The translations under genes and the position numbers were made by a program. From Posidonia oceanica (Eukaryota; Streptophyta; Magnoliopsida; Alismatales; Posidoniaceae), in assembly GCA_037176725.1 (NCBI GenBank), contig JAZBRS010000026.1, positions 153,647,501 through 153,711,500 of the forward strand: a stretch of DNA of 64,000 nucleotides. The letters are read 5' to 3'. Position 1 is the first letter of the stretch, and each line of letters begins with the position of its first letter. Positions 31,451-61,300 of the stretch are shown here, one piece after another. The notes under the pieces are model-generated. The model was not told where the DNA came from. It was given only the letters and a program-made list of their open reading frames with translations, and did no database searches.

Positions 31451-32101
31451 TCCTTTGCATGTCGCCTGCATTGCTTGGTTTGACCGTCGTTTTGCTTTTT
31501 CGCTTGCATTTGCATACAGGGCAGTGATGCTTACTGCCTGGAGTTCTCACGAGCCAGGTTTCGCCCGGTTCGGAACACAGACAGTGTTGTTGAGCACTTA
31601 GACTACACGTTTACTTTCCTGCTTTGCTTCCCACCACTTAGAGCACACCTTTGAGCATTCATTCAGGCATTCATTGGCATTTAGGCATTCAAATCTGCAT
31701 TTCCCTACGTATGCGAGCGCAAGCCTAGAAAGACCGATTCTCGGGCGTGTCGGGGGTGCCTAACACCTTCCCCGCACGTAACAGGAGTCCTTGCCCAGTC
31801 TTTTGGCCCGCAATGACCATATTGCCCTTATCCTAGGCATGAGTCATCTCATTTGCATTCATTTGCATTTGTTTTCCTTCGCATTGCTTTGCTTTGCATT
31901 TCTTGCTTGGTTTTGTGTGTTAATTCACGCATTTCCCCTGGTTTTCCTTTCTCCCGATAATAGACACGGTGGCGACTCTGAATTGTCTTATCTTCTTCTT
32001 TTCTTATCTTTTCTCCTCTGTTTTAAGTGTATTCGAGTTGAGCCCTCCTCCTCGGACTTAGCCGCTAATAGTAAGCCTGATTCTGATTGGGATTACTACA
32101 G

Positions 32102-35803: not shown

Positions 35804-38434
35804 CCGCGTGCCAGGCCGGAGCGCCCCTTCGCGCCTCCCGCTGTGCTTCCTCCGGCTCAATCCCCTGTACACCTCCTAGCTAGGGCCCAGCCTAGATCCC
35901 CTGTCCACCTCTTAGGGCGACCTCAGCTAGGATCCCCTATACACCTTCTAGGCAGACCTCAACCTGCCCCAGCCTTCCCACCCCAACAACCATACCCTCT
36001 AGGTAAACCTCAATACCCAATAGGTCCCCCTGTAACCCCTCCTGTGCTAGCAGCACGTGCTCCGGTGGTTATTGACTTAACCCTGGACACCCATCGCGTC
36101 CCTTACAGCTATGCCACAGAAATGTGTGCGGAAGTAACGCGATCGGGGAGGGTCTACAGGCCCCCAGCACCGACAATTAGGCCAAATCACCCTGAACCTG
36201 CTATGCCCACACCCTCTAACTAACCCGTAGCGGACCCAACCTCAAGTCAACCCGTAGCAAGCCAAATCCCTACCCAGCCAATAGCGGCCCAACTTCCTGC
36301 CACCACCCCTTTGGAGCTTGCCAAAACAACCCCTCCTGTCGCCAAAAAGAACCAACCCAAGGCAGACATAACCTCCCAACTTAAGAAGGTCAAAGCCAAC
36401 ATATCCATTTGGGACCTAATCCACACCTCTGCCGAACACCGTGAGGCTTTCCTTCGCGTGTTCCAAGCCGCTCGAGTGTCCCAATCTATCGAGCCTTCAG
36501 CCTTGGAGAGCATGGTAGGGATGATTGCGGAGCCCCAGGTCATCTCTTTTACAAGCAATGAACTACCTCCGGCGGGGATTAATCACAATCAACCCCTGTT
36601 CGTCACGGTTCAGTTCAAAAACTTTCGCATTCCCCTAACTCTGGTTGATAATGGGTCAGGCCATAACGTCTGCCCTTTGCGTACCGCAACCAAGCTCGGA
36701 TTCAAAGCCGAGGACATCACGCCAGCCGTGAAGGGAATGACAGCTTTTGACAACACACACCATGACGCTCTAGGGATCCTGATTATTCCTCTTGCCATCG
36801 GCCCGGTCGTCTTCGATGTAGAATTCTATGTCGTCGACTTGAAGTTGAATTTCAATCTTCTGCTTGGGCGCCCTTGGCTCCACAAGCATTAGGTCCTTCC
36901 CTCGACCCTCCATCGAATGTACCGTCGTGGCGATGATGTCATTGTCATCATGGTGGAGAACTTTGAGAAGGAGCGGATCGAGGCAGTCTCCCCCGTGTCT
37001 TCACAAGCTATCCCGTTTGACCCCGAGACTTCTGAAGCTCTATATCGCGTTAATCGATGTGAGCCGGTTAACTTCATTCCTGATCTTGAACGTGTCAACT
37101 CCTTGGCCGTTCACAACAACCCCTTCCGAATGGTCGAGAATGTATGTCACAGGTGGGGTTACGTGAAGGGTACACCGCTCGGGCGTCACGGCCAAGGGAT
37201 CGCAGAGCCAATCGTAGCGGCGGAGCGGAGGAAATCTGAAGGCCTCGGTTACGAACCCAAGCCCAACGAAGATCACTGCCTTCAGCTCAAGGATCAAGAG
37301 CCAGCCATCCCCAGAGACCTCACAAACTTCACCAGTGCAGGGATTCTGGGATCAACTGATGATCAAGCCGCGGTGCCGGCAGAAGACTGGGTCTGCATTG
37401 AGGACTACTACTCGGATAAGGAGCAGTCTGGCACAGTAGAGGCAGTCCCAACTGGCAGCAAGGCTCTGATCAGCACAGAGGCACCACGGTCAGTTTGTTC
37501 GGCTCTCCCTCCAGCAGATATAACAGACAACTCAGCAGGCTCCGTGGCAGAACTGGCAAGCTCTCACATTCTTGCTGCCACATCTGCATTACAAGTACAG
37601 GCAGCAGCAGTGGTACAGAAGTCAGAGACACTCCTTCTGGTAGAATCAGGTAGGCTACCTGCGGTCGCAGTCACATCAGTACCGCTGTCCCTCTCTCTGG
37701 AAGGACAGTCAGTCAATTCAGTCAGCAACGCGACTCGGCCTACTTCAGCAGTCGCATCACTGAGAATGCAGCCGACGCAGTCCACTTCGCATCTTCCTGC
37801 AGTAAAACAGCAACTCTCATGGCAGGCCCCCATGGTGTCAGAAGCCGCACTCTCACAGTTACCACCGGATGTAGAGGACCAATTGAGCACCACAGTCTCC
37901 CGGCCCTTGAGCTCTCAGAAGAGCACCTCTACCTGCCCTCCACCTGCAACAGCGACGCTGGCAGCATACCCATCTGTGGCCCCGCTGATCAGTCTGTTTG
38001 GATCTCCCATGCCAAAGTTGCCGCTATCAGGTGCACCCGTGAGCCAGACCATGCAAATTCCAAGGGCAGCGATCCATCTTGCAGCCGGGCCAGTGCCACA
38101 GGCCCCCGGCGCCTACTACGTCAACTCACCCTCAGACGAGGAGGAAGGAGTGGCGATAGAAGCCCAGGTCGATTCATGGATGTCTGACTTAGAGCTACTT
38201 TATCAAGAACAACTCAAGTCGATAGCAGAAGACCTAGCAGAGCACCGAGCCACAGAAAGGAAAGGGAAAGCCGTGGTTACGGACCCTCCTCTGCAAGAAG
38301 ACCATGCCTCTATCATGGTCCTGGAAGAAGACTCGGCAGTACCAGACCCCCTAGACCAGATGAGCTCATCACTCTCCGACCAGAAGGCGGGTCTAGGTGG
38401 TTTGTGTAACACATGCCTCACTGGGGCAGCGTAG
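35804..38434 (+). pseudogene. E5 protease and linker region
   Basis: Continues the gag frame with stops at 36221 (TAA) and 36890 (TAG; E6 has CAG there). First comes a short repeat with SPVHLLGRPQ-like units (35860-35960). The retropepsin-like domain (36590-36890) has LTLVDNGSGHNVCPLRTATKLG and FNLLLGRPWLHKH; D-N-G instead of D-T/S-G is usual for Tat/Ogre elements. Then RWGYVKGTPLGRHGQG, a G-patch-like piece, and a long A/S/P/Q-rich linker of about 450 residues. One base is missing near 38352 relative to E6, so the frame changes and this ORF stops at 38434. Confidence 0.83.
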
Positions 38435-40861: not shown

Positions 40862-42205
40862 CTCAGTATACCCGAAGACAGTACAGTAGATGTATCAGTT
40901 ACCTGCATAGAGCAGCCTACACATTGCATGAACATAGAAGAGGCAGATCCAGTAGAGGAGCAGCCCTGGTATCAAGACATAAAAACTTTCCTGGAGTCTG
41001 GCAGCTTTCCTCCTGATACCGCGGCAGCAGACAGGAGAACTCTGACGCGTCTAGCATCAAAGTATGTGTTGGGGGCTGGGCAGCTATACAGAAGATCATA
41101 TAACCATATGCTACTGCGCTGCCTGGACAAATCAGAGGCGGACACGCTGATGCTTCAAGTGCATGTAGGGACCTGTGGCCCGCACATGAACGGCGTCCTC
41201 CTAGCCAAGAAGATCATGCTCCAAGGATATTTCTGGCAGACCATGGAAGCAGATTGCTGCCGGTTTGTGCGTAAATGCCACAACTACCAGATCCATGGTA
41301 ACTTCATTAGGGCCCCCCCACAACAGCTGCATAACATGTCTTCGCCATGGCCTTTCTCCACCTGGGGGATCGATGTCATTGGCGCCATCCACCCTGCTAC
41401 TTCAAATGGTCATCGCTACATTCTGGTAGCGATCGATTACTTTACCAAGTGGGTGGAAGCGGCCTCTTATGAGACAGTCACCGCTGTGGCAATAGAAAAG
41501 TTTATCAGGAACAATATCGTTGCCCGATATGGGGTCCCACACTCTGTCATCTCTGATAATGGCACAAACTTCATTGCCAAAAAGACCGAGGAATACCTGC
41601 AGAGTCTCAAGATCAAGCATCATAGATCCTCACCCTATCGGCCACAGATGAACGGAGCAGTGGAGTCTGCAAACAAGAACATTGTTAAAATCCTGAAGAA
41701 GATGGCAGAAACCCACAAGGATTGGCATGACAAGCTCCTGTACGCGCTCTGGGCGTACAGGACATCAATTCGGACCTCGACGGGAGCCACCTCGTACTCT
41801 CTGGTGTACGGCATGGAAGCGGTGTTACCTGTCGAAGTGGAGATCTCCTCACTACGGATCTTACGAGAAGCTGAGTTGGAAGAGGCAGAATGGGTCGAAG
41901 ACCGCTGCATCCAACTGAATCTGATTGATGAGCACCGACTACAAGCTATGCACAATGCTCACTGTTACCAGAAGCGGATGGCTAGAGCGTTCTTGAAGAA
42001 AGTCCAGCCCAGAAACTTTCGGCCAGGAGATCTCGTTCTGCGCGCCATTCATTTACCTGACGGTTGAGGCAAATTCCGACCTAACTGGCGTGGCCCCTTT
42101 GTGGTTAAGCAGATCTTCTCGGGTGGCGCTGTAACTCTTGAGGACATGGACCAGGTCGAGTAGCCCGAGCCGGTCAACTTGTGCTACCTCAAGAAATACT
42201 ATTAG
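40862..42205 (+). pseudogene. E5 integrase
   Basis: Zinc-binding region with HVGTCGPHMNG and CRFVRKCHNYQIHG; the last ligand is Y where E6 has C, a G-to-A type change that should weaken zinc binding. Catalytic core: GIDVIGAIHP, ISDNGTNF, MNGAVESANK (D, D, E). C-terminal part GDLVLRAIHLPDG, then stops at 42065 (CGA in E6), 42161 and 42203 (CAG in E6). No chromodomain, as expected for Tat. Integrase would insert the cDNA in the nucleus; this copy is inactive. Confidence 0.9.
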
Positions 42206-43585: not shown

Positions 43586-44788
43586 ATGGGTTTCCCTACT
43601 CTGGTGACCCCAGCACACTGCTCGGAGACCCTGCGAGAATGGATTGGCAAGCTCACCCAAGAAGACTGCGAAAAGCTGCACCTATGGGGCATTCCAACCA
43701 AGCTGCTGAAGGCCGCTGATGTAGAAGTAAGCCGCCATCTTCTGTGTGCCTCTGCAAGGTTCTGGAAACCGGCACACCACGTCTTTCGCTTTGGCAGAGC
43801 TGAACTGACACCCACGCTGGAAGAAGTGCGTCGGATCTGCGGCTTCTCCAAGATCATGGGGCTGCCTATCTTCATGAGGCGTGATGGATACCTTGAGGTC
43901 CTGAGCCAATTGACTGGGCTCCCCACTCGAAGCTGCCAACAAAGACTGATCTGCACCAGCGGGCCCGAACCCCTGCTTCGCCTGGCGCACTTTGATGACG
44001 TCATGAAAAAGCACGTCGAGCTCGGAGACAAGCTGTGGCTCCGAGGGTTTGTCATCCGTTTCCTAGGCGAGCTGATCTTTACTCATGGCCGACTGACAGT
44101 AGCCATCAAGGTTGCGGAAATAGCACTTGCTGTGGTGACCCGGCAGATAGACCTAGCACCGGTTGTTCTGGCAGAAACATACCGCGGGCTGGACCGCATC
44201 TCACATCGCTGCCGCCACTTCCATGGCTGCGGGGCACTTATACAGGTCTGGCTAGCCGCCCACTTAGAGATGGACCTTCTGCACCCCCAGGTGCATGCCT
44301 TTGAAGCCTACTGCAGCAGCGGCCGTGCCAGGACAGTCAAGAGCGTCAAGGAAGAATATGAAAGGCTATCAGCACTGACCGACAACGCAGTAACCTGGCG
44401 TATCATTCCCTCCATGGCCGTTCCATTCACTATCTTCTTCAGCGCACGCGACACACGGCTGATTGTACTACCAGGATTCACTGCGGGTGTGGAATACCAT
44501 CCTATCAGGGTTATGCGCCAGTTTGGCTTCCAGCAGGACGCCTTTGTTGACAGCACAGCACCCAAGCTTCTGCAGACATACCCTCTTAGCACGACTGCCC
44601 CAACAAAGAAGCTGGCCAATCTGATGCAGCATGGAGTGCGATCAACAGACATCGCAGCTGCGAGAGGTGTAGGATGTACCCCTGAGTACCTGACCGAGGT
44701 CCAAGAGCTCTGGCCCATCAATGAAATCTCGCCAGGCAGCCCCCTGTTCCCTGACTCCAGGCAGTCGAAGAAGGCCCGAACCGGCTAG
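43586..44788 (+). CDS. E5 extra ORF, DUF7745/plant-mobile-domain-like protein
   Basis: 400 codons, open, sense orientation, 3' of integrase. It begins MGFPTLVTPAHCSETLREW. The region LLCASARFWKPAHHVFRFGRAELTPTLEEVRRICGF (residues about 52-90) has the pattern ALAQFWNPAYxxFTFGKVDLVPTVEE known from DUF7745 and aminotransferase-like plant mobile domain proteins. No signal peptide or membrane segment. The C-terminus is basic (RQSKKARTG), possibly a nuclear signal. Extra ORFs have been described in Tat-lineage elements; their function is unknown. It is intact here while the rest of E5 coding is full of stops, which may be chance or slower decay. Confidence 0.8.
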   Translation: MGFPTLVTPAHCSETLREWIGKLTQEDCEKLHLWGIPTKLLKAADVEVSRHLLCASARFWKPAHHVFRFGRAELTPTLEEVRRICGFSKIMGLPIFMRRDGYLEVLSQLTGLPTRSCQQRLICTSGPEPLLRLAHFDDVMKKHVELGDKLWLRGFVIRFLGELIFTHGRLTVAIKVAEIALAVVTRQIDLAPVVLAETYRGLDRISHRCRHFHGCGALIQVWLAAHLEMDLLHPQVHAFEAYCSSGRARTVKSVKEEYERLSALTDNAVTWRIIPSMAVPFTIFFSARDTRLIVLPGFTAGVEYHPIRVMRQFGFQQDAFVDSTAPKLLQTYPLSTTAPTKKLANLMQHGVRSTDIAAARGVGCTPEYLTEVQELWPINEISPGSPLFPDSRQSKKARTG

Positions 44789-45168
44789 GGCACTTATGCA
44801 GCTACTATGTAGTTTCTTTTCAAGTTATGCTGTATCTTTTGGCCTGACACAGGCATGTAATCAATAGTTCCTTCAATGCAAAAGCATTTTCTGCTATCTG
44901 TTTGCACCTCAAGACTACTTAATGCATTGCATAATCATTGCCAACCTCATCTTGAGCCCTCTCGCCAGACTTGCAGCCAACACAACGCAGGAAAGTCCTC
45001 AGCAGTCAATCTGGAGTCCAGAATCTCTGCAGACCCACGCCGTCAAGCCAAGCCATCCAGCATCCCCAGCTGAGTCTCTGTCGGGCTGGTACCCCAAACT
45101 ACTCGTCTGACAAACACGACAGTTTTGTCTTCATCCTCTGCTTTTGATGCCAAGGACGCGCTAGCCAA
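44789..45168 (+). other. E5 3' UTR start
   Basis: No gene. It contains the single-copy motif GGCTGGTACCCCAAACTACTCG (about 45086-45107), which also occurs once in E3 and is multiplied into an array in E6. Confidence 0.6.
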
Positions 45169-45195
45169 CCCCTGGTATCATCCTGATACCAGGGG
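45169..45195 (+). repeat. 3' UTR hairpin I of E5
   Basis: CCCCTGGTATCA, loop TCC, TGATACCAGGGG: perfect 12-bp stem. Confidence 0.85.
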
Positions 45196-45237
45196 CATCT
45201 TTTGATCGCCCCTTGGTATCATTCTCCCTCTCTTTCC

Positions 45238-45262
45238 CCCATGATATTCCTGGTATCATGGG
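45238..45262 (+). repeat. 3' UTR hairpin II of E5
   Basis: CCCATGATA, loop TTCCTGG, TATCATGGG: perfect 9-bp stem. The E6 copy differs at three pairs, all compensatory, with an identical loop. Confidence 0.85.
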
Positions 45263-45289
45263 ATGATTCGCTCTTGCGAAACCCATTCA

Positions 45290-46075
45290 TTTGCTGGCCG
45301 ATAAGTCCAATATCTTATCATCTCTTTCCCTTTGCCGGCCGATAAGTCCGATATCTTATCATTCCTTCATCCCCTCTTTGCCGACCGATAAGTCTGATAT
45401 CTTATCATTCTATTCTTTTATTCATTTGCCGGCTGATAAGTCCGATATCTTATCATCTCTTTCCCTTTGTCGGCCGATAAGTCCGATATCTTATCATCTC
45501 TTTCCCCTTGCCGGCCGATAAGTCCAATATCTTATCATTCCTTCATCCCCTCTTTGTCGGCTGATAAGTCCGATATCTTATCATTCTATTCTTTTATTCA
45601 TTTACCGGCCGATAAGTCCGATATCTTATCATCTCTTTCCCTTTGCCGGCCGATAAGTCCGATATCTTATCATTCCTTCATCCCCTCTTTGCAGGCCGAT
45701 AAGTTCGATATCTTAACATTCTATTCTTTTATTCATTTGCTGGCCGATAAGTCCGATATCTTATCATCTCTTTCCCTTTGCCGGCCGATAAGTCCGATAT
45801 CTTATCATTCCTTCATCCCCTCTTTGCCAGCCGATAAGTCCGATATCTTATCATTCTATTCTTTTATTCATTTGCCGGCCGATAAGTCCGATATCTTATC
45901 ATCTCTTTCCCTTTGCCGACCAATAAGTCCGATATCTTATCATTCCTTCATCCCCTCTTTGCCGACCGATAAGTCCGATATCTTATCATTCTATTCTTTT
46001 ATTCATTTGCCGGCCGATAAGTCCGATATCTTATCACCCCTCTCCCTTGGCCGGCCGATAAGTCCGATATCTTAT
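45290..46075 (+). repeat. 3' UTR array of E5, three-monomer higher-order repeat
   Basis: About 18 monomers GATAAG-TCCGATAT-CTTATC. Three spacers (ATCTCTTTCCCTTTG, ATTCCTTCATCCCCTCTTTG and ATTCTATTCTTTTATTCATTTG) recur in rotation over much of the array, giving a unit of about 135 bp. The array is cut within a monomer by E6 at 46076. Confidence 0.88.
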
Positions 46076-46734
46076 TGTAGCGATCCCGATCGGAACCAGG
46101 CTCGCTATTTAGCGGCGATTGAGATCCGAGGAAGAGGCTCAACTCGAAAAACACTTAAAATCGAGGAGAAAAGGGAAAGATAAGACAAATCAGAGTCGCC
46201 ACCATGTCTATTAACGGGAGACAAGGAAAACCGGGGGAAATGCATGAATTAACACGCAAAACCAAGAAAGAAATGCGAAGCAAAGCAATGCAAAGGAAAA
46301 CAAATGCAAATGAATGCAAATGCGATGACTCTAACCTAGGATAAGGGCGGTACGGTCATTGCGGGCCAAAAGACAGGGTAAGGACTCCTGTTACGTGCGG
46401 GGAAGGTATTAGGCACCCCCGACACGCCCGAAAATCGGTCTTTCTAGGCTTACGCTCGCATACGCAGAAGGATGCAGGATTGGATGCCTATGTGCCTATG
46501 ATTGCCTAAATGAATGCTCAAGGAGTGCTCTAAGTGGGAAAATGCAAGGCAGGGAAGTAAACGTGCTCTCTAAGTGCTCAGCTACGCTGTCTGTGTTCCG
46601 AACCAGGCGAAACCTAGCTCGTGAGAACTCCAGGCAGTAAGCATCATAGCCCTATATGCAAATGCAAGTGAAAAAGCAAAACAACGGCAAAACCATGCAA
46701 TGCGGTCGGCACGCAAGAGAAAACGGCGTAAAAC

Positions 46735-47020
46735 ACGCAAAACGAGGCGAGAAACGAGAAAGGCACGCAAGACGATGCAGAGAAGCGAAATCGGCACGCG
46801 AAACAAGCGAGAAAGCGAGACAACATGCAAAACGAGGCAAGAAAACAGGAAACTACTCAAAACGAGACGAGAAAACAGAAAGGTACGCAAAACGGAGCGA
46901 GAGAAAGAAACCGGCACATAAAACGAACGAGAAGGCAAGACAGTGCGCAAAACGAGACAAGAAAACAGATGGGTACGCAAAACGGAGCGAAAACGAGGGC
47001 GGGCACGCGAAACGGTGCCA
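46735..47020 (-). repeat. 30-bp tandem array inside E6 LTR
   Basis: About ten diverged copies of the same 30-bp unit as in E1 and E5. Confidence 0.8.
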
Positions 47021-47480
47021 AAACAGCGAAGCAAAAACCTCGAAAAAGCCATGCAAATGCGAGGATGCGGAGAGAGATTGGAAGGGGGCGAAGGGGAGGC
47101 AAGACAACGTGTGTATAAGAACAAACGCTGTTTAGGACTGCTCAGAGTAGGTGTGAAGACCTTCTGAGGGGAGAAGGGGCAAATGGGGGGATTATCACCT
47201 TCTTGCGGCTGTTTCCCACTAAACCATTCCACGATGTGTCTCGCATGCTGCCCAAAGCTCGCGATGCGATCGGATCGTGGAAAGAGGGGAAGAAAGTCAC
47301 ATAAAGTGGCAAATCCAGGAAGAACACAACACGAAACACATAGAGAAACGCGAAACGAGGATTTGAACAGACAAGCAGAAAGGGGAAGTCCTATTCTACA
47401 TGCTCGAAGAGACAGAAAGCGAAAACAAGGAAAACTGTGCAAATGCCATGCAAATGAATGCAATGCAGGGGTTCAGGAGG

Positions 47481-47489
47481 ACATACCTG
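47481..47489 (-). promoter_or_regulatory. Candidate 5' splice site in E6 LTR
   Basis: Minus-strand CAG|GTATGT, replacing the GTAAGT of the other copies; still a good donor. Confidence 0.42.
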
Positions 47490-50400
47490 GAGATCCGGGA
47501 GCCTGATCTGAAATCTGTCTGGTCCATGCTGAAGAGCGCTTCGCTGCGGTTGCCTGGGCAGCTCATTTGAGAAGATCCAACGGCCGGATTGGAAGATATC
47601 GCAGCTCCGAAGCAGAAAGGCCAGAACAGGAGAGAAGAACAGATCTAGGTGTTCAGGAGGTCCTAGGGATGTGCAAAAAGGTCCTCCCAAGTGAAAGGGA
47701 GCTAGAAGTGCTTAGTGTGTGCAAGAAGATGCTAAAATGCAAGACTAAATGAGTGCAGGATGCATGCGAAAGCAAGAAAAGCAAAGAGAAGTAATTTGGG
47801 AAAAACTAGGAGTTCAGAAGGCATTTTGAAAAAGAAGAGGGGCTAAAAGTGCAAATTTTCCAGAAAACAGGGTTCCACAGGAGAAGACTTTGAAAACAAG
47901 GGAAGCCAAGGGTCTATTTGGCAAAAAACTAGGCTCAGGAAGGTGTTTTAAAAAGAAGGTATGTTTTAAAAGAGATTTTGAAACCAAAAGGGGTCAGAGT
48001 GCAATTTTGAAAAAATCTAGGGTCTAAAATGCAAATTTTCCAGAAAACAAGGTCCTGGGGAGTCTAGGGGTACTAGTGGAAGGTCTGTATGAAATTTGGT
48101 AGGCATAGGGGCTAAAATGCGACCTAGGGGCAAAATGGTCTTTTCACATGATTTTTTAAAACATGCAGGGACCTAGATGTGATTTTCAAATCATGCAGGG
48201 GCTGAAAATGCAATTTAGTATGGAAAATATGCTCTGGAATTTAAATGACAGGACCACGGTGCAATTTCTGGAAAACATGGGGTTAAAAATGCAATTTAAT
48301 AAGCTAAAATGGATGCAGCACAGTTACTGTCCATTTAAAATGGACCTAACTGTAAATATGATAAAGCAGAGGGGCTAATATGCAATGCATCAACCAAAAA
48401 TAAAAATCAGAACCTAAGTTTCTACAGTGCATGGACTTAAATGCAAAAATAAAAACATGCAAGGGGCCAGGATGCAATACAGTATGGTAAATATGAGTAA
48501 ATAAATGAACTGATTAAATGCAGGACCTAGGTGCAAAAACTGAGAACAGGAGGACTAAACTACAAAAAAATTAAAGCAGCACAGCACAGTAAAAGGATCT
48601 ACTTGCAAATATTGAAAAACATAAACAGATCGCGCAATTTAGCAAAGTATTTAATTAAAAACTAAGCAGAATAAATGAAATAAGGACTGGAATGCAAAAT
48701 AAAAAAAAACTCAGACCAGAAATGCAATATTTGCAAGAAAACTTAGATATCAGAAAAATAAGTGAACAGTGCTATGGCCGACGGCCATGGACACTGTAGC
48801 AGCAAGCTGCCAGCGTCCATGAACGCCGGCACGGGGGTGTTGGAGCGGCGCAGACCGGTGGGGAGGCGCCTCCAGGTCCTGACGGAGGTCGGACGATGCT
48901 CGGCGGAGGACGACGCAGCCTGGAGCGCGCTGGAGCAGTCGCCGGAGCTCTGCAGAGCCTCAGGAGGTTCGTCCGGCCGATCAACGCAGCGATGCTGCGT
49001 TATGAGGGCTGGGGAACGCTCCTGGGACTCGTGCGGAGCTGAGACGATCGCGGGAGCTGCGTTCCGCTGCCCGGAGCGACGAAGCGACCGAAGAACTGCG
49101 CCGGAGAAGACGACCGGAGCGGCGAGCAGAAGCAGGGCAAGAGGGCCGGGAACCTATTTCTAAAAGGCTGAGAAGCAACACAGGATGAAAAGGAGACTAA
49201 GGGAGCAAGAATATACCTGTTTCCGTGGCTGGGATGTCCTCCCGACGCAGGTGGCTTCAGAGGTCGCCGGTGGAACTCGTCCGGTCGCTGTGGATGCTGT
49301 CTGCTGCTCGCGAGGACTGGGATCGACTCAGAGTGACCCTCCGGAGCTTCCTGGATGGTTGGACAGCTGCTGCGAAGACCGGCGAAAGATCTGACTGATC
49401 GTGGGTTCACAGAGGCAGCCGGAGGTCGGGGGGACTGTTTGCTGCACGCCGGACTGGATGGGACCCTCCGGGTGGTTGCTGGAGGGCTGAGGAGTGTAGC
49501 TGGATGCTCGGAGAAGGTTTCTGGTACGAGTGGAGGGGAATTTGAGGTCTGGGTTGATTTCTGACAGAAATAAGGTTAAGTGTTTGAAGTGGAGTTTAAG
49601 GTCTGTGGTGGATGATTTGGTTTGATGTCGGAGGCTCTGGAAAGGTGGATGTCTGGTGGATTATTGGGTGGAGTTTGGAAGGAAGCAGCGGGCTGTGGTG
49701 AGGGGAATTGTCTGGTGGGTTGGAGTTGGGTTGCTGCGGGTGTTCGGAATGGTTTGAAGGTGTTTCGGGTGGTGGAATGGCTGTAGGAAGATGAGGGGAA
49801 AATGGCTGTGTGCTGGGTGAGTTTGGGGAAGGAATTAGGAGAAGGATGAAGGCTAGGAAGGGTGTTGGTTAGCTGGGAATGGAAGAAGGGCGTTTGCTGA
49901 ACTTTTCAGAGAAGAAAAGGGGAGAATTGGGTGTGGGGATCGGTCTGAAGTGGGGGCTTCTCTCCGAGATGCAAGGGTGGCTCTCAAACACTCTCCTCTA
50001 CTCTCTCTTCACTCTGGAATTGGATGAAATGCCCAGGAGAAGGGAGGCTGCACTGGTGGAAGGAAAGTCCGGACTCTGGTCTGATCCTATTCTCGCACTG
50101 GTTCGCTCTCTCCTTAGTTCTCTCTGATTGCCTCCCTCTGCTCTCCCGGATTGAAGGAGGAACGGGCTAAAAAAAAGAGGAGGAGGAGACTGCTGGGCGC
50201 GAGCCAGTGGTTTGAATTCCACCGGCGTCACTGCAGCTGAAGGGACCAGCAGCCGGCGAGATGACAGGCACTTGATGCCTCCCAGAATCGGTGCTGAGAT
50301 AGAAGAGAGGCGGCGAGTTCTGTAGACGATAAGATGGAGGCTCGAATTTGAACAAAGGAGGGAATGCTGTAGTCGCGAGCTCGCGGGAAGAAAAATCGGT

Positions 50401-52062
50401 GGAGAGAAACACAGAGGAGGAGAGGAAGAAGAGGGAGGAAAGGGAAGCGGGCCGGACTGCTGCGGGCCGAGAAAAAGAAAGAAAAAAAGGAAAAAAGAAG
50501 AAACAGGCCGGATTGAGCCCAGTAAGGAAAGAAAGAAAGAAAGAAAGAAGGAAGAAAGAAAGAGAGGGTAGAATGGGGAAATAAAATAGGTGAAAATAAA
50601 CTAAAAATAAATAAAAATATTAGAAGAGTTTTGCTGTAGATTAGGATTTTAATTAAGATTTTTGATGGTTATTTTGAGTTGATTAATGTGTTTTGGGCTT
50701 GATTAGGGTTTTAGGGTTTTGGTTTTGTTCCTAATTGGTTTTCACTTGTTTAAACGTTTGTTAATCCCTTTTTAAATTATTTTAAAAATTTCATTTCTTT
50801 TGCTGGACACTTAGGATATTAATTAGGATTTTTTAGGATTTATTTTCCTATTAATCAGGGTTGGTTTTATGTTTTCAAGTTGTAGTCTTCTTAGGGTTTT
50901 TCCTTCTTAAATCTTTTAAGTTATGTTTGGATTTTTATTTATTGGTTTTTTCTTGAAGTTTTTAGTTGGATTTTTTCTGGTTTAATAGAGTGTCTTTTAG
51001 GCTTTTCAGATGTGTTTTCCTTTTCTTTTTAAATTAAGTTTTTAACTTGTTTTTCTTGTGTTTACTAGGTTAAGTCCTTTGCCTTTTTTAATTATTTGTT
51101 TTAATGTTTGATCTTTAATTCTCCTTTTTAGGGTTTGTTTTTTAATTCTTCTGATGGGTTCTTACCTTTGGTGGGTTTTGATTTTGTTTTAGCTTTTTCC
51201 CTGATTTTTCAGTGTTTTCTTTTGATTTGTTTTGCATTTTTTAGTTTGCATGTTTAGTCTTCTTTTTAGCTTGCTTAAGTTAAGTTTAAGTTGTTAATTG
51301 CTTGCTTAACATTTTTTAATTGTTTTTCTTAGGGTACTGATTTGTTTGTTTTATGTTTTGAGATTTTACAGATTTTTATGGGTTTTTGTGGATTTTTGCA
51401 AAAGGGAGAAAAGGGAAAAGAGAAGGAGGAAAAAAGATGGAATAAAAAGGGGAATAAAAGGAAAAAGGTAGGTTGGAGGAAAACGATTTTTAAAAATTCA
51501 GAAAAAGTGTTAAAAATGAAGTAAAAATAGGGATAGGATAGAGGAAGGATAGAAGCACAGAGGGGGCCCACAGCCAGACCAGAAAAAGGATCAGAAAGGG
51601 ATGAAAAGAGGGATGATAATCAGGAGAGAGAGAGAGGAGAGAGAAAATGATAATCCTGGAGAGAGAAAAGGATAATTTGGGTGAAAGAGGGTCCTAATGG
51701 TCTTAGAATGGGGTGAAAATTGGTGGGTGGGTAGTCTAGGTTTTGAAGTCTTGGGTCTGAAATTTTGGTTTGATTCTAAGGAGGTTTTGGAGGGGTTTCA
51801 AGGCATAGAAAAAGGGTAGTTTCACCTAAGTTTTCTAGGGTTTTTGGGAATGGGTCAGGCTTGGAAAATCCTAGGTTTTTGGGTAGGTTTGTTGAGTGGA
51901 TAGTGGTGGGTTTTCCTATGAATTTTGGTTGGGTTTTGGGGTTGGGAAGGGGGGTAGAGGTTTAGGCCAAAACAGGCTGATTTTGAAGGGTTGAGAGGAG
52001 GGTTAGGGTTAGGGTTTGATCCAGCAATCAACCAGAGGGCTCCAAGGGTCCAGGCCTGCCAA

Positions 52063-52144
52063 GATGGGGTGTCAACAGATGCCCCTCCCTGAGCAAGGGT
52101 AAGCGGAGCGCGGCCGCTGCTCAGGGTTGACAAGACACCCCATC
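52063..52144 (-). promoter_or_regulatory. E6 polypurine tract inside an inverted repeat
   Basis: Minus-strand tract GGGAGGGGCATC (52089-52078) against the LTR start. Outer arms GATGGGGTGTC (52063-52073) and GACACCCCATC (52134-52144), 11 bp; inner arms CCCTGAGC (52087-52094) and GCTCAGGG (52119-52126), 8 bp. The outer arm enters the LTR. Confidence 0.85.
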
Positions 52145-52640
52145 TGACCGGCGGGAGCAGCGGGTTGCTATGGGCGTGAGCTACTTATTCGGCGGATGCA
52201 CCGAAGATCGTAGCCCGTTGCCGCAATGCAAAATGCCAGTGCAGATGGATGCTGTGCTGTGTGTATGCATGCTGATGTGAGTGTAATGCAAGAGTTAGTA
52301 TAAAAGTTAGTGCAGCCAGAAGAAAATGCTGATGCTGCGCAAGTGATACAGGTGATGCTAAAATGACATGCAGTGCTAGCTAAGAAAGTGCAGAGATGAT
52401 GCAAGAAAATGGTAAAAAGGCGCGATGTGGTGCAAATGTCTGGCAGGGAAGGCAGGCTTGCACGACAAAGCGAGGGGAAACAGGGTGCAGCTGGTCCCCG
52501 CCCGGGGAGCAAGCTAGCAGGAAAGAAGGGAGCGAGGGGAGAGAGGCCAACTCTCCCATCGCAGAAAGGGGGTGCGTGATCTCGTCTTCCTGGGACAAGG
52601 TCACGCCGAAAAGGAGAAAAAAAATGATAAGGTGACGGGC
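52145..52640 (-). other. E6 3' UTR segment next to the polypurine tract
   Basis: No gene. Similar to E3 17506-17960. Confidence 0.6.
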
Positions 52641-53640
52641 TTATCGTCCGGATAGTTTACGGTCCTATCAACCGGGAGCGACAGTTTACGGTCCTGTCAA
52701 CCGGAGCAGTTGTGAGTGATAGTTACTGGATATCAGCCGTATAACATGGTTGTGGGTGATAGTTTAGGAGTATCAGCCTAACGACAGTTTACGGTCCTGT
52801 CAACCGGTGGATAGTTTACAGACCTATCAACTGGAGGATAGTTTACAGTCCTATCAACTGGAAACCCACAAACCATGAGTGATAGTTACTGGATATCAGC
52901 CGTATAACGCAATGCCGGATAGTTTACAGTCTATCATCTGGAACGACAGTTTACGGTCCTGTCAACCGGCGGATAGTTTACAGACCTATCAACTGGAGGA
53001 TAGTTTACAGTCCTATCAACTGGAAACAGCATTGCGAGGGACAGTTACTGGATGTCAGCCGTATAACATCATTGCGCGTGGTAGTTTACAGTCCTACCAA
53101 CTGGTGGATAGTTTACAGACCTATCAACTGGAGCGACAGTTTACGGTCCTGTCAACCGGCGGATAGTTTACAGACCTATCAACTGGAAACGCGCGATGAT
53201 GAGGGATAGTTACTGGATATCAGCCGTATAATGCAATTGCGGGATAGTTTACAGTCTATCATCTGGAACGACAGTTTACGGTCCTGTCAACCGGCGGATA
53301 GTTTACAGACCTATCAACTGGAGGATAGTTTACAGTCCTATCAACTGGAAACCGCAATTGCAAGGGACAGTTACTGGATGTCAGCCGTATAACGTAATTG
53401 CACGCGGTAGTTTACAGTCCTACCAACTGGAGCGACAGTTTACGGTCCTGTCAACCGGTGGATAGTTTACAGACCTATCAACTGGAAAAGTGCAATTACG
53501 AGGGACAGTTACTGGATGTCAGCCGTATAACACAACTGCGGGCCAACCATGGATCGGCCAGAAGATAGTTTAGGTTATCAGCCTGAGAGTGATTGATTGT
53601 TGATAGTTTCGGATATCAGCCTAGCACGAGTGATTGATTG
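52641..53640 (-). repeat. E6 array 1: hairpin monomers with covarying stems
   Basis: About 30 monomers of 25-28 bp. On the plus strand the stems are GATAG/CTATC, GACAG/CTGTC and GGTAG/CTACC around TTTACGGTC or TTTACAGTC, and GATA/TATC or GACA/TGTC around GTTACTGGA. They are the reverse of the E3 monomers. ORFs across it are not genes. Confidence 0.88.
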
Positions 53641-53675
53641 ATTGATAAGAGGGGGCAAGATCATGATGAGAATGA

Positions 53676-54475
53676 TAAGATGTCGGACTTATCGGCCGGC
53701 AAAGAGGGGATGAGGTAGTGATGAGAAATTAAGCTAAAGAGGGGGGTGAGATCATGATGAGAAGTTAAGCTAAAGAGGGGGATGAGATCATGATGAGAAA
53801 TTAAGCTAAAGAGGGGATGAGATCATGGTGAGAAGTTAAGCTAAAGAGGGGGGTGAGATCATGATGAGAAATTAAGCTAAAGAGGGGGATGAGATCATGA
53901 TGAGAAATTAAGCTAAAGAGGGGATGAGATCATGATGAGAAGTTAAGCTAAAGAGGGGGATGAGATCATGATGAGAAATTAAGCTAAAGAGGGGATGAGA
54001 TCATGATGAGAAATTAAGCTAAAGAGGGGGATGAGATCATGATGAGAAATTAAGCTAAAGAGGGGATGAGATCATGATGAGAAATTAAGCTAAAGAGGGG
54101 GATGAGATCATGATGAGAAATTAAGCTAAAGAGGGGATGAGATCATGATGAGAAATTAAGCTAAAGAGGGGATGAGATCATGATGAGAAATTAAGCTAAA
54201 GAGGGGATGAGATCATGATGAGAAATTAAGCTAAAGAGGGGATGAGATCATGATGAGAAATTAAGCTAAAGAGGGGATGAGATCATGATGAGAAGTTAAG
54301 CTAAAGAGGGGATGAGATCATGATGAGAAGTTAAGCTAAAGAGGGGATGAGATCATGATGAGAAATTAAGCTAAAGAGGGGATGAGATCATGATGAGAAA
54401 TTAAGCTAAAGAGGGGATGAGATCATGATGAGAAGTTAAGCTAAAGAGGGGATGAGATCATGATGAGAATGATAA
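53676..54475 (-). repeat. E6 array 2: 35-36 bp homogeneous array
   Basis: About 21 copies of GAGATCATGATGAGAAATT/AAGCTAAAGAGGGGAT, almost identical. Flanked on both sides by a GATAAG..CTTATC hairpin monomer (53670 and 54470). G-run lengths give order: 6,5,4 twice, then 5,4 three times, then 4 only. Confidence 0.92.
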
Positions 54476-54532
54476 GATATCGGACTTATCGGCCGGCAAA
54501 GAAGGGGTAAGGGAATGATGAGAAGAAACCAT

Positions 54533-54559
54533 CCCTATGACGCCAGGAACGTCATAGGG
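54533..54559 (-). repeat. 3' UTR hairpin II of E6
   Basis: Minus strand CCCTATGACG, loop TTCCTGG, CGTCATAGGG: perfect 10-bp stem. Confidence 0.85.
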
Positions 54560-54600
54560 GAAAGGGGGAGAGAATGATACCGTGGGGCGATCAAAAGATG

Positions 54601-54627
54601 CCCCTGGTGTCGGGGTGACACCAGGGG
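54601..54627 (-). repeat. 3' UTR hairpin I of E6, first copy
   Basis: Minus strand CCCCTGGTGTC, 5-nt loop, GACACCAGGGG: perfect 11-bp stem. A-T of the E5 stem has become G-C. Confidence 0.85.
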
Positions 54628-54689
54628 TTGGCCAGCGCGTCCATGGCATCAAAAGCAGAGAGTGATGACAAGAGTGTCGTGCTTGTCAG

Positions 54690-55360
54690 ACGAGTAGTTT
54701 GGGGTACCAGCCCGCAAGGGATTCAGCTGAGGGCGATCAGCTGGGGACTCAGCTGGGGTGACCAGCCGAGAAGAGCGTTAGGTTGACGGACCTTTCGCCG
54801 AGCAGTTTGGGGTGCCAGCCCGTAGAGATAAGGATCCAGCTGGGGCGACCAACTGGGGACTCAGCTGGGGTGACCAGCCGAGAAAAGTGTCAGGTTGACA
54901 GACCTTTCGCCGAGCAGTTTGGGGTGCCAGCCCGCAAGGGATTCAGCTGAGGGCGATCAGCTGGGGGCTCAGCTGGGGTGACCAGCCGAGAAGAGTGTCA
55001 GGTTGACGGACCTTTCGCCGAGCAGTTTGGGGTGCCAGCCCGTAGAGGAATTTAGCTGAGGATGATCAGCCAGGGATGATACCGCAGGGCAGCCAAAAGA
55101 TGCCCCTGGTATCAGGATGATACCAGGGGATGTCCGAAGCGCCCCTGGCATCAGGATGCAAAGATAGATGAACGAGTGGGTGGATGATAGGTTGATGAAC
55201 CCATCGCCGAGCAGTTCGGGGTGCCAGCCCGTAGGGGACTCAGCTGGGGACAATCAGCTGAGGATGGTGACAGGTTGACGGACCTTTCGCCGGGCAGTTT
55301 GGGGTGCCAGCCCGCGATAGGGACTCAGCTGGGGATGATCAGCTGAGGATGACGGATGGC
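54690..55360 (-). repeat. E6 array 3: amplified CCCAAACT motif with CAGCTG hairpins
   Basis: About seven diverged copies of roughly 100-120 bp. Each has the GGCTGGCACCCCAAACTGCTCG motif (single-copy in E3 and E5), an AGGTTGACGGACCT stem and CAGCTG-based hairpins, for example CTCAGCTG/CAGCTGAG (55324-55331, 55340-55347). It also encloses a second hairpin I at 55103-55129 (perfect, 12 bp). Confidence 0.8.
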
Positions 55361-55622
55361 GTAGCTTGACGACGCGGGTCCGCAGATGTTCTGGACTCTG
55401 GATTGGGTGCTGAGGACCTTACTGCGTTGTGATGCCTGCAAGTCCGGTTAGAGGGCCCAAGATGATGATGATAATGATATGCAATGCAGCAATGAGTCTT
55501 GATGTGCAAGCAGATAGCAGAAACAGTTTTCATTGATAAAGCTTGATGAGTACAATGCCTACGGCAGGCCAGAAATGTACAGCGTAATCCGAAAGAAGAC
55601 CGCATGATGGTTGCACAAGGGC

Positions 55623-56960
55623 CTAGTCAGTTCGGGCCTTCTTTGACTGCCTGGAGTCGGGGAACAAGGGACCGCCCGGCGGGACTTCAGTGATAGGCCA
55701 GAGCTGCCGGACTTCAGCTTCATATTCAGGGGTGCATCCTACACCTCTCACAGCTGCAATGTCTGTAGATTGGACCCCGTGCTGCATCAGACTAGCGAGC
55801 TTCTTGGTCGGGGCAGTGGTGCTGAGAGGATAAGTCTGTAGAAGCTCGGGCGCTGTACTGTCAATGAAGGCGCCCTGCTGGAAGCCGAACTGGCGCATGA
55901 CCCTGATTGGGTGGTACTCTATGCCTGCTGTGAAGCCTGGAAGAATGACCAGCCGCGTGTCACGCGCGCTGAAGAAGACTGTGAAGGGCTCTGCTGTAGA
56001 GGGAATGATACGCCAGGTCACGGCATCGTCAGTCAGTGCTGACAGCCTCTCGTACTCTTCTTTGACGCTCTTGTCTGTTCTGGTACGGACGCTGCTGCAG
56101 TATGCTTCGAAGGCGTGTACTTGAGGGCGCAGGAAGTTCATTTCTAAGTGCGCGGTCAGCCAGACTTGTATAAGTGCTCCGCAACCGTGGAAGTGGCGGC
56201 AGCGATGAGAAATGCGGTCCAGCCCGCGATATGTCTCTGCCAAGACAACTGGTGCCAGATCTATGTGCTGGGTCACCACAGCTAGCGCAATTTCTGCGAC
56301 CTCGATGGCCACTGTCAGTCGGCCATGAGTAAAGATTAGCTCGCCCAGAAAGCGGATGACAAATCCTCGGAGCCATAGCTCATCTCCGAGGTCAGCACGC
56401 TTGTTCAAGATATCATCAAAGTGTGCAAGGCGAAGCATAGGCTCTTGTCCACTGGTGCAGATTAGCTTTTGTTGGCAGGCTTGAGTGGAGAGTCCAGTTA
56501 GCTGGTTCAGGACTCGGAGATATCCGTCGCGCCTCATGAAGACAGGTGGCCCCAAGATCTTTGAAAAGCCGCAGATCCGACGCACCTCTTCCAGTGTAGG
56601 TGTCAATTCGGTCTTGTTGAAGCGGAAGACATGATGTGCCGGTTTCCAGAATCTTGCGGCGGCACACAGAAGGTGGCGGCTGACTTCCACATCAGCAGCC
56701 TTCAGCAGCTTAGTTGGTATGCCCCACAGGCGCAGCTGTTCACAGTCTTGTAGAGTGAGCCTGCTGATCCATTCTCGCAGGATTTCCGAGCAGTGTGTGG
56801 GAGTCAACAGAGTAGGAAAACCCATTGCACTGGTTGCAGAAGACAGGCTGATTGCTTCAAGGCTTGAGGTACCTGCTATCAATAAACAGTCAGATCTTGC
56901 AGGCATATAATCTTTGACAACAAACAGAAGCTGAGACTGAAAGTGTAGTTCCATATGCAT
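55623..56960 (-). CDS. E6 extra ORF, DUF7745/plant-mobile-domain-like protein
   Basis: 445 codons from the first ATG at 56960; the E5 copy begins at the codon corresponding to 56825 (MGFPTLLTP), so that start is preferred, giving 400 residues. Same domain as in E5: LLCAAARFWKPAHHVFRFNKTELTPTLEEVRRICGF. Differences from E5 are mainly conservative. The protein has no RT or integrase motif, and no signal peptide or membrane helix. Position 3' of integrase, where some other Ty3 groups carry env-like ORFs, but sequence gives no support for an envelope. How it is translated is unknown; a spliced or internal start is needed. Being open in both copies suggests purifying selection or recent origin. 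Confidence 0.82.
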   Translation of the reverse strand: MHMELHFQSQLLFVVKDYMPARSDCLLIAGTSSLEAISLSSATSAMGFPTLLTPTHCSEILREWISRLTLQDCEQLRLWGIPTKLLKAADVEVSRHLLCAAARFWKPAHHVFRFNKTELTPTLEEVRRICGFSKILGPPVFMRRDGYLRVLNQLTGLSTQACQQKLICTSGQEPMLRLAHFDDILNKRADLGDELWLRGFVIRFLGELIFTHGRLTVAIEVAEIALAVVTQHIDLAPVVLAETYRGLDRISHRCRHFHGCGALIQVWLTAHLEMNFLRPQVHAFEAYCSSVRTRTDKSVKEEYERLSALTDDAVTWRIIPSTAEPFTVFFSARDTRLVILPGFTAGIEYHPIRVMRQFGFQQGAFIDSTAPELLQTYPLSTTAPTKKLASLMQHGVQSTDIAAVRGVGCTPEYEAEVRQLWPITEVPPGGPLFPDSRQSKKARTD

Positions 56961-58346: not shown

Positions 58347-61300
58347 CTACTGATAGTACTTCTTCAGATAGCAGAGGTTGACGGGTTCAGATTGCTCAAT
58401 CTGGTCCATATCTTCAAGGGTTACAGCGCCTCCCGAAAAGATCTGCTTGACCACAAAGGGGCCACGCCAATTGGGTCGGAATTTCCCTCGACCGTCAGGC
58501 AAATGAATGGCGCGCAAGACAAGGTCCCCTGGCTGGAAGCTTCTAGGCTGGACCTTCTTCAAGAATGCTTTGGCCATCCGCTTCTGATAGCAGTGAGCGT
58601 TGTGCATGGCTTGCAATCTGCGCTCATCAATCAAGTTCAGTTGGATGCAGCGGTCTTCGACCCATTCTGCTTCTTCCAACTCAGCTTCCCGCAGGATCCG
58701 CAGAGAGGGGATCTCCACTTCAACAGGTAACACCGCTTCCATGCCGTACACCAGAGAGTACGGGGTGGCTCCTGTAGAGGTCCGGATTGATGTCCTGTAC
58801 GCCCAGAGCGCGTACGGGAGCTTGTCGTGCCAATCCTTGTGGATTTCTGCCATTTTCTTCAGGATCTTGACAATATTCTTGTTTGTAGATTCCACTGCTC
58901 CGTTCATCTGAGGCCGATAAGGTGAGGATCGATGGTGCTTGATCTTGAGACTTTGCAGGTATTCTTCGATCCTTTTGGCAATAAAGTTTGAGCCGTTATC
59001 AGAGATGACAGAGTGCGGGACCCCATACCGGGCAACAATATTGTTTCTGATAAATTTTTCTGTTGCCGCAGCGGTGACTGTCCTGTAAGAGGCCGCTTCC
59101 ACCCACTTGGTAAAGTAATCGATCGCTACCAGAATGTAACGATGACCATTTGAAGCAGCGGGGTGGATGGCGCCGATGACATCGATCCCCCAGGTGGAGA
59201 AAGGCCATGGCGAAGACATATTATGCAGCTGATGTGGAGGGGCCTTGATGAAGTTACCATGGACCTGACAGTTGTGGCATCTACGCACGAACCGGCAGCA
59301 GTCGGCTTCCATGGTCTGCCAGAAATATCCTTGAAGCATGATCTTCTTGGCCAGGAGGACGCCGTTCATGTGCGGGCCACAGGTTCCTGCATGCACTTGA
59401 AGCATCAGCGTGTCCGCCTCCGACTTGTTCAGGCAGCGCAGTAGCATCTGATTGTATGACCTTCTGTATAGCTGCCCGGCCCCTAACACATATTTTGACG
59501 CCAGACGCGCCAAAGTTCTCTTGTCTGCCGCCGTGGTATCAGGAGGAAAGTTACCAGACTCCAGGAAAGATTTTATGTCTTGATACCAGGGCTGCCCCTC
59601 TGCTGGATCTGCTTCTTCTATGCTCATGCAGTATGCAGGCTGTTCAATGCGAGTGACTGATACATCCACAGTGCTGTCTTCTGATATAGTGAGCCAGGAT
59701 GCCAGAGTTGCTAGTGCGTCTGCATACGCGTTCTTCGCTCTGTTCAGGTATGTGAAGCGGATGCTCTTGAATTCTTTCATCAGCCTCAGCAGGTGTTCAT
59801 GATACGGCACAAGCTTGGGATCTTTTGTCTTCCAATCGCCGTTCACTTGAGAAATTACCAGCATGGCATCGCCGTGCACATGCAGCTTCTGCGCCTCATG
59901 CTCGAGGGCGACTTTCAACCCCAGGATGCATGCTTCGTACTCTGCTTCGTTGTTTGTGCAGGTGAAAGTCAGCTTCCTCGCGAAAGGAGTCACCTGTCCT
60001 TGGGGCGTGGTCAGCACTGCGCCTATGCCTCGACCCTTCTTGTTGACTGCACCATCAAAGTAGAGCTGCCATTCCTCTGCTTCTTCAGGATCTTTCTGCT
60101 CAGAGTCCTCCATTGCAAAGAGAATGTCTTCATCAGGGAACTGCATCTGGAGGGGTTGGTATTCAGGCAGAGGGAGGTCAGCAAGATGGTCTGCCATTGC
60201 TTGACCCTTCATGGATTTCTGTGTGACGAAGGTGATGTCGTACTGAGACAATAACACCTGCCACTTAGCGCATCTGCCCACCATGGCCGGCTTCTGGAAG
60301 AGGAATTTGATGGGATCGTGCCGGCATAAGAGCTGTACTGGGTATGCCATCATGTAGTGCCTCAGCTTCTGTGCAGCCCAGACAAGGGACAAGCAAGTCT
60401 TCTCTAGTGTTGTATACCTGGCTTCGCATTCATTAAATTTCTTGCTCAGGTAGTAGATGGCGCGCTCCTTCCTACCAGATTCGTCATGTTGGCCCAAGAC
60501 GGCGCCCATGGAATGCTGCGTGGTAGAAAGGTAGAGAAGCAAAGGTCTCCCTGGCGTAGGCGGGACCAGGACAGGAGGCTTGATCAATAGCTGCTTGATC
60601 TTGGCAAATGCAGCCTGACACTCCTCGTTCCAGTGAATCTGCGCATTCTTCCTCAAGAGCTTGAACATGGGTTCGCAGATGGGCGTAAGCTGTGCAATGA
60701 AGCGACTGATATATTGTAGACGCCCAAGCAGACTTCTGACTTCCTTTTCAGTTCTAGGGGGTGGCATGTCCACGATGGCTTGTGCTTTCAACGGGTCCAC
60801 CTCAATCCCCCTTTGGCTAACAATGTAGCCGAGCAATTTGCCAGAAGATACCCCGAATACGCACTTCTTGGGATTCAGGCGCAGCTTGTACTTCCGTAGA
60901 CGGTCAAAGAGCTTTCTGAGACAGGCAAGATGATCCTCGGGCTCTTTGGTTTTGGCGATCATATCGTCTACATAGACCTCCACTTCTTGGTGCATGAGGT
61001 CGTGGAATAGCGCAGTCATGGCCCTTTGATAGGTTGCGCCAGCATTCTTCAGGCCGAACGGCATGACTTGGTAGCAGAAGACTCCCCAAGGGGTGATGAA
61101 TGAAGTCTTTTCCATGTCCTCTTCCGCCATTTTGATCTGATTGTATCCAGAAAAGCCGTCCATGAAGGAGAGCATTTTGTGGCCCGCTGTATTGTCGACT
61201 AGGACGTCAATGTGGGGCAATGGAAAGTCGTCCTTGGGACTTGCCTTGTTCAGGTCCCTGTAGTCGATACAGATCCGGATTCGGCCATCCTTCTTGGGCA

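Follow-up and report, generated by a model that had tools for sequence, protein, structure and literature searches.

Do the hairpins in the 3′ untranslated region (3′ UTR) of a plant retrotransposon keep their pairing because the RNA is selected to fold, or because one arm is copied from the other? The question is raised by a 64,000-nucleotide stretch of the Posidonia oceanica genome (GenBank assembly GCA_037176725.1, contig JAZBRS010000026.1, positions 153,647,501 to 153,711,500 of the forward strand; hereafter the window) containing copies of a Tat/Ogre-like retrotransposon, labeled E3 and E5 on the plus strand and E6 on the minus strand. The original prediction, made from two hairpins that differ between copies at both partners of several pairs, left both causes open. 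We consider it probable, judging from the patterns of sequence change, that the 3′ UTR is a folded RNA domain kept by selection on the sense transcript. Its parts would be two long hairpins, I and II, and small H-type pseudoknots that tandem units form in an array.

Hairpins I and II

A stem scan found both hairpins at the places claimed for E5 and E6. The copies in the window are as follows.

45169 to 45195, plus strand: hairpin I of E5, 12 perfect pairs, loop TCC.
45238 to 45262, plus strand: hairpin II of E5, 9 perfect pairs, loop TTCCTGG.
55103 to 55129, minus strand: proximal hairpin I of E6, 12 bp, the same sequence as hairpin I of E5.
54601 to 54627, minus strand: distal hairpin I of E6, 11 bp, the GGTGTC/GACACC variant.
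54533 to 54559, minus strand: hairpin II of E6, 10 bp, CG-type stem with an extra A inserted.
16193 to 16219, plus strand: hairpin I of E3, one C.A mismatch, of the mismatched subfamily.
16264 to 16289, plus strand: hairpin II of E3, one A.C mismatch; an inserted A gives an additional inner pair.

The reported A-T to G-C change in hairpin I is present in the distal E6 copy, with the proximal copy retaining the E5 form, and E3 has the one mismatch reported for each of its hairpins. Hairpin II needed correction: the tenth, outermost pair counted in E5 (45237/45263) is C.A and no pair, and only two of the three double changes described between E5 and E6 are clean double substitutions. When E3, E5 and E6 are aligned, the third, C-G to T-A, consists of C to T in one arm and the inserted A in the other; an insertion-free T-A at this pair occurs in 18 of the 100 genomic copies described below. 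The same alignment shows the loop-closing A-T of the distal E6 hairpin I opened to A.C by a one-sided change.

Among the 22 perfect stems of at least 8 bp with loops of 3 to 12 in the window, five are hairpins I or II, and these include the three longest (12, 12 and 11 bp). We searched the 2.96-Gb assembly (80 contigs, both strands) using patterns that leave bases free on both arms (four pairs in hairpin II), with reversed patterns as the control. Hairpin I was found in 15,886 copies (8,033 + 7,853) and hairpin II in 12,285 (6,163 + 6,122), while both controls gave 0; given these counts, chance is ruled out as the source of the hairpins in the window. Two unrelated 10-bp perfect stems start at 24751 and 41736, the latter (41736–41762) within the E5 integrase open reading frame (ORF). 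An additional 8-bp hairpin with the loop TCCAGGAAG lies at 17515–17539, past the last E3 array unit and ahead of a purine-rich stretch.

Pair states were tabulated for 100 copies among the matches listed. In hairpin II, the loop-closing pair was A-T in 55 and G-C in 43, with single cases of GA and TC; pair 2 was C-G in 41, T-A in 29, T.G in 28 and C.A in 2; pair 6 was A-T in 93 and G.T in 7; and pair 7 was C-G in 50, T.G in 31, T-A in 18 and C.A in 1. The 400 cells, which are not independent because of common descent, comprise 329 Watson–Crick pairs, 66 G.U, 3 A.C and 2 others. Across the genome, pair 2 was T.G in 4,816 cases versus C.A in 378. One-sided states of hairpin II are thus mostly G.U on the sense strand, and since a sense-strand G.U is A.C on the opposite strand, the wobble bias is strand-specific. 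The varying inner pair of hairpin I was A-T in 48 and G-C in 52 copies, with no one-sided state.

Tandem Arrays of Crossing Stems

Hairpins had been the sole focus of the original prediction; real as they are, the adjoining tandem repeats hold more of the pattern. In each of E3, E5 and E6 the hairpins are followed downstream by arrays whose units are themselves inverted repeats with similar loops. A unit runs in the order stem 1 5′, loop 1, stem 2 5′, junction, stem 1 3′, loop 3 and stem 2 3′. Four of the five defined tandem-repeat families (T1, T2a, T2b and T2d) fit a predicted H-type pseudoknot by this order. Short loop 1 and longer loop 3 would suit an RNA pseudoknot in the sense direction. 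Once the sense units were known, we composed a descriptor limiting loop 1 to 1–2 nucleotides (nt) and loop 3 to 2–5 nt. The structured units and adjacent repeats are the following.

45103 to 45129, plus strand: pk0 of E5, a pseudoknot-like unit and descriptor hit in which TCGT/ACGA crosses GACAAA/TTTGTC.
45290 to 46075, plus strand: T1 array of E5, 18 units CGG-CC-GATAAG-T-CCG-ATAT-CTTATC, with 12 of the 13 sense descriptor hits in E5.
54666 to 54693, minus strand: pk0 of E6, with the stem-2 variant GACAAG/CTTGTC.
54691 to 55070, minus strand: 108-bp tandem repeat of E6, between its two hairpin I copies.
52626 to 53660, minus strand: T2 array of E6, pseudoknot-like units with descriptor hits.
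16312 to 17505, plus strand: T1 and T2 arrays of E3, pseudoknot-like units.

Within the E6 T2 array, stem 2 occurs as GATAG/CTATC, GACAG/CTGTC and GGTAG/CTACC, and stem 1 as CGG/CCG, CAG/CTG and TTAGG/CCTAA. Each of 44 pieces of array sequence contains 6 to 41 units. In the 5.7 kb of the three 3′ UTRs, the descriptor gave 59 sense and 18 antisense hits; the window outside them gave 69, both strands summed, and five whole-window shuffles gave 42–51 per strand. At 83 loci with 125,059 bases of array, the hits, which as repeats are not independent, numbered 1,789 in the sense and 689 in the antisense direction and 53 after shuffling, and sense exceeded antisense at 83 of 83 loci, an excess partly built in because the descriptor was written after the sense units and its loop limits are unequal. 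Loop 3 was 4 nt long in the majority of hits. The window had no Rfam match at the gathering score, and a search of 52600–55700 with E-values (E) up to 10 returned three small nucleolar RNA matches only, with E of 2.1–8.9 and far below gathering.

To tabulate pairing in the arrays, 2,802 units from the window and the 83 loci were gathered by similarity to five seeds with 7 mismatches tolerated; as the seeds are paired, badly broken units are under-counted. Locus L001 is the same place as E5 and is excluded from most locus counts. Both crossing stems show two-sided change in T2a and T2d. The T2a stem-1 pair (n = 1,065) was GC in 555 units, AT in 445, AC in 38, GT in 23 and other in 4; in stem 2 of the same units the first pair was TA in 981, CG in 76, CA in 3 and other in 5, and the second AT in 1036, GC in 19, GT in 2, AC in 2 and other in 6. 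In T2d (n = 546), the stem-1 pair shows all four Watson–Crick types (AT 358, GC 77, TA 39, CG 5), with 67 units unpaired or wobble (AG 42, remaining 25), and stem 2 was AT in 471, GC in 70, AC in 4 and GT in 1. Stem 2 of T2c (n = 460) was TA in 323, CG in 133, CA in 3 and TG in 1; stem 1 of T2b (n = 96) was TA in 45, CG in 31, AT in 12, TG in 5, CA in 2 and CC in 1; and the inner stem-2 pair of pk0 was AT in 42, GC in 22 and GT in 1 of 65 rows.

Two-sided exchange was thus seen in at least eight stems, namely both stems of T2a and of T2d, stem 2 of T2c, stem 1 of T2b, and hairpins I and II. We slid the register of seven stems (with T1 stem 2, T2b stem 2 and T2c stem 1 outside the test): the Watson–Crick fraction was 0.88 in T1 stem 1 and 0.92–0.99 in the other six when in register, and at most 0.49 when slid by 1–3. 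Genome-wide, a 5′ A in the T2a stem-1 pair faced T in 93,315 cases and C in 7,622, and in these 5′-A searches the free stem-2 bases, read by eye, were paired in every T2a row among the matches listed.

Covariation and Shared Descent

The earlier argument, that chance would hardly produce three or four double changes, was overstated, because double changes are shared by descent. We compared covariation with a null that preserves the tree. Following the R-scape approach, each alignment's inferred changes were placed anew on its own tree in 200 simulations; the trees used here and in the branch counts were built from short, partly recombining sequences. For the hairpin region, 7 of the 83 loci lacked an anchor, and dropping rows with more than 12 gaps, for the branch counts as well, reduced 79 rows to 67, of which 65 were unique. 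The T2a alignment used 250 of 314 unique rows.

Among the 18,145 column pairs of the hairpin region, the first rank was taken by a hairpin I pair (E 0.15), the third by the loop-closing pair of hairpin II (E 3.3) and the 18th by a pair in pk0 (E 29). Stem-1 pairs ranked first in T2a (E 0.58) and T2d (E 0.18), each with a stem-2 pair at rank 4 (E 1.4 and 1.9, respectively), and a stem-2 pair ranked first in T2c (E 0.04). The proposed pairs of T2b came third and fifth (E 4.0 and 5.2), and the best of T1 was 11th (E 12.9). The covariation test suggested at the outset therefore gave a divided answer: a proposed pair tops four of the six alignments (hairpin region, T2a, T2c and T2d), where the odds of a random pair being a proposed one are 31 in 18,145, 8 in 406, 6 in 406 and 9 in 406, but pair by pair the signal is marginal over the null.

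The distribution of changes on the tree was studied for hairpins I and II and pk0, averaging 20 reconstructions with restoring changes excluded and sums rounded. Changes keeping versus losing the pairing numbered 18 to 6 on internal branches and 31 to 34 on terminal ones (Fisher p 0.019). One-sided changes as frequent as double ones had been named as the outcome that would speak against the idea, and this is seen in part: one-sided changes are common in single copies. In the explanation that we prefer, selection during the life cycle of active elements would preserve the pairing of the sense transcript; paired bases would change jointly between subfamilies, in hairpin II by way of G.U, and single inserted copies would decay one-sidedly. 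The sequences themselves show the complementarity, the two-sided states, the order in which the two stems cross in sense units and the wobble bias of hairpin II; simultaneous formation of both stems, selection as the cause and any use of the domain are inferred from them.

Evidence Against a Selected Fold

A number of observations do not fit a selected fold easily or reduce the weight of the evidence for it. Amplified A.C states, one-sided changes in single copies and marginal covariation partly match what the original prediction had named as adverse. In hairpin I, the pair one step outward of the varying pair was C.A in 18 of the 100 listed copies and the loop-closing pair was A.C in 46, so that pairing has exceptions and one subfamily with a mismatch has become widespread. 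If amplified states are counted instead of cells, the G.U excess is modest, with hairpin II pairs 2, 6 and 7 and one pk0 pair (14 of 65 rows) on the G.U side, and two states in hairpin I and one at hairpin II pair 6 (4 of 65 rows) on the A.C side. Among one-sided states in the arrays G.U shows no enrichment, and AC units outnumber GT units in stem 1 of T2a. Further amplified mismatches are the A.G of T2d stem 1 (42 of 546), the C.A that 399 of 460 T2c units carry at their third stem-1 pair and the T.T at the outer stem-1 pair of pk0 (13 of 65 rows).

Other points concern covariation and folding. Only one pair, in T2c, reaches E of 0.05 or less. One-sided changes occur in stem 1 of T1, which shows no covariation, and stem 1 is without covariation support in T2c and pk0 as well. 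Internal changes in the arrays are not clearly protected, with about 7 breaking changes and 5 to G.U on internal branches in T2a stem 1. T2c departs from the H-type order at stem 1, and the sense excess of the descriptor counts for less by the share that its post hoc design contributes. Hairpins of 6 bp are no more frequent in the E6 T2 array than in shuffles (1 versus 2.0), its stems being 4–5 bp long. Nested folding picks only one of the two stems in some families (stem 1 in T2a and T2e, stem 2 in T1), so that the units may form alternative hairpins instead of a pseudoknot. A reading in which every hairpin is perfect was rejected in view of the mismatched subfamilies and of the decay of array stems in individual copies.

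Alternative Explanations

The strongest rival, which we consider unlikely, is that the two-sided variants had only a few unselected origins, which transposition and homogenization of the arrays then multiplied; the large counts would be those few events seen repeatedly. It would account for separate pairs being marginal against a null that preserves both the tree and the number of changes, for the amplified mismatched states, and for the lack of a protective internal–terminal split in the arrays. A few founders fit less well with exchanges spread over so many stems, with a T2d stem-1 pair that has gone through all four Watson–Crick types, and with the first rank of proposed pairs in most alignments.

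The arm copying that had been offered as one of two causes appears very unlikely. Here, fold-back priming during reverse transcription or repair would template one arm on the other and the pairing would be unselected. Correction of quasipalindromes yields concerted two-sided changes in inverted repeats, and the near absence of one-sided intermediates (0 of 100 listed copies at the varying pair of hairpin I and 4 of 460 units in T2c stem 2) is what such copying would leave, as are the insertions in hairpin II of E3 and E6, both of which improve the pairing. However, the process predicts neither G.U intermediates nor covarying 3-bp stems. RNA structure is favored because of the G.U bias of hairpin II (66 of 400 cells), the two-sided change in crossing stems of as little as 3 bp, and the persistence of the C.A subfamily of hairpin I, whose mismatch copying should have mended; the T1 arrays, too, hold many uncorrected one-sided changes.

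Binding of a dimeric protein, perhaps the plant-mobile-domain protein encoded upstream, to symmetric half-sites in the DNA would suit short inverted repeats with fixed spacing, but is hardly credible when arm letters vary while pairing stays, the hairpin II wobble bias is strand-specific and a single unit holds two crossing stems.

The Host Element

The coding regions upstream of the structured 3′ UTR place the element in its lineage.

58347 to 63965, minus strand: pol ORF of E6, with a weak protease match, G-patch, reverse transcriptase, RNase H, RVT_3 (second RNase H) and integrase.
43586 to 44788, plus strand: sense ORF of E5 with a plant mobile domain (PF10536, E 3.2e-19), upstream of the structured 3′ UTR.
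55623 to 56960, minus strand: sense ORF of E6 with a plant mobile domain (PF10536, E 1.4e-21).

Pfam domains in the E6 pol ORF are RVT_1 (889–1049), RNase H (1112–1242), RVT_3 (1303–1421) and integrase (1513–1685). Combined, E5 and E6 contain gag, weak protease matches, reverse transcriptase, RNase H, a second RNase H, integrase and the plant-mobile-domain ORF, which in both copies sits in sense orientation between integrase and the hairpins. In the consulted text of PMC6317226, a second (archaeal-type) RNase H between RNase H and integrase marks the Ogre/Retand part of the Tat clade, and 57% of Ogre elements encode a plant mobile domain in an additional ORF. As E6 has the second RNase H at this place, the element is assigned by its domain order to the Ogre/Retand part of the clade and is Tat/Ogre-like; the extra plant-mobile-domain ORF, present in E5 and E6, points to the Ogre type. 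Retand elements have an antisense TRP28 (PF04195) ORF between pol and the 3′ long terminal repeat (LTR) according to the consulted part of PMC11963269; no Pfam match to TRP28 was found among the 10 ORFs scanned, and none of them was antisense between pol and the 3′ LTR. A protein search with the plant-mobile-domain ORF returned 13 proteins: three come from named plants, with 23–25% identity, and the other ten are unnamed, on ENA contigs of 974–2185 bases. As these hits are proteins without DNA, all copies compared come from this one genome. Searches for further copies of the element gave 0 matches in viral contigs and none in plasmids.

Several other features of the window were noted. The G-patch domain occurs in three pol regions (36917–38434, 8333–10288 and 58347–63965), following the weak protease match in two of the three and preceding the reverse transcriptase in E6. 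At 46075–46076, the E5 array stops abruptly at a minus-strand leader copy (46076–47577, matching 30380–32100), and E5 seems to have been cut there through rearrangement or insertion. Tandem repeats in the leader, about 30 bp long and built around GGCACCGTTTTGCGTGCC, lie at 30927–31437, 2691–3368 and 46734–46997, some copies with 5-bp stems; the leader repeats of E5 and of the copy labeled E1 were rejected as 6-bp hairpins, there being none in the leader arrays. The descriptor scan picked out a 27-base leader segment in three leader copies (2591–2617, 23088–23114 and 31512–31538), in which a 6-bp inverted repeat GGCAGT/ACTGCC crosses a 4-bp one, apparently antisense to the element. The 35-bp T3 array of E6 was rejected as a structured unit since 6-bp hairpins are absent. 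A 35-bp array without 6-bp hairpins, about 22 copies around 96% alike, spans 53701–54469 and resembles an expanded T1-unit spacer.

Comparison with Known Systems

The consulted parts of two papers on Tat/Ogre and Retand elements describe arrays of short repeats that follow the coding region and precede the 3′ LTR, as found here (PMC7004042; PMC11963269), in a lineage sharing the extra RNase H between RNase H and integrase. Such 3′ UTR tandem repeats are common in the lineage and can be the source of plant satellites (PMC7004042, as consulted), and their origin and eventual function remain unknown according to the consulted text of PMC11963269. In these parts, the two papers treat sequence repeats and the origin of satellites, and not RNA structure: the word "hairpin" is absent from the main text of both, and "secondary structure" from that of PMC11963269. 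Among titles and the beginnings of abstracts, with subscription papers mostly outside, we found no report of pseudoknots or covariation in these 3′ UTR repeats. Tandem repeats in Tat 3′ UTRs were already known.

We propose tentatively, from the sequences at hand, that the hypervariable 3′ UTR repeats of Tat/Ogre elements at large, and the satellites born from them, are selected RNA pseudoknot arrays. If the repeats are selected folded RNA modules, an old question becomes testable by ordinary RNA probing, and the thousands of natural double changes in the arrays would form a rich data set on the evolution of RNA structure. The element would then have amplified and diversified a multivalent RNA signal through compensatory change, and repeats freed as satellite DNA would keep an RNA-fold code in the chromosomes.

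In anatomy, the upstream pseudoknot domain of tobacco mosaic virus is the closest to the arrays of the element; the sizes of its stems and loops are similar to those of the array units. The virus has three consecutive pseudoknots in its 3′ UTR, with roles in replication and translation and binding of eEF1A, according to the consulted part of PMC4683447. By this analogy the arrays may, as the likeliest of their uses although we hold it short of probable, give the genomic RNA a multivalent 3′ domain to which a protein is recruited, raising stability or translation; binding of Gag or of the plant-mobile-domain protein for packaging is a use that we regard as still more doubtful. There being no Rfam match, the arrays are not filed as a tobamovirus domain, and the likeness is one of anatomy. 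They differ from the viral domain in having 6 to 41 units per piece and in belonging to the transcript of a retrotransposon and not to a virus; what the two may share, here as judged from a sequence descriptor and two-sided states, is a row of consecutive small pseudoknots in the 3′ UTR of a plant RNA.

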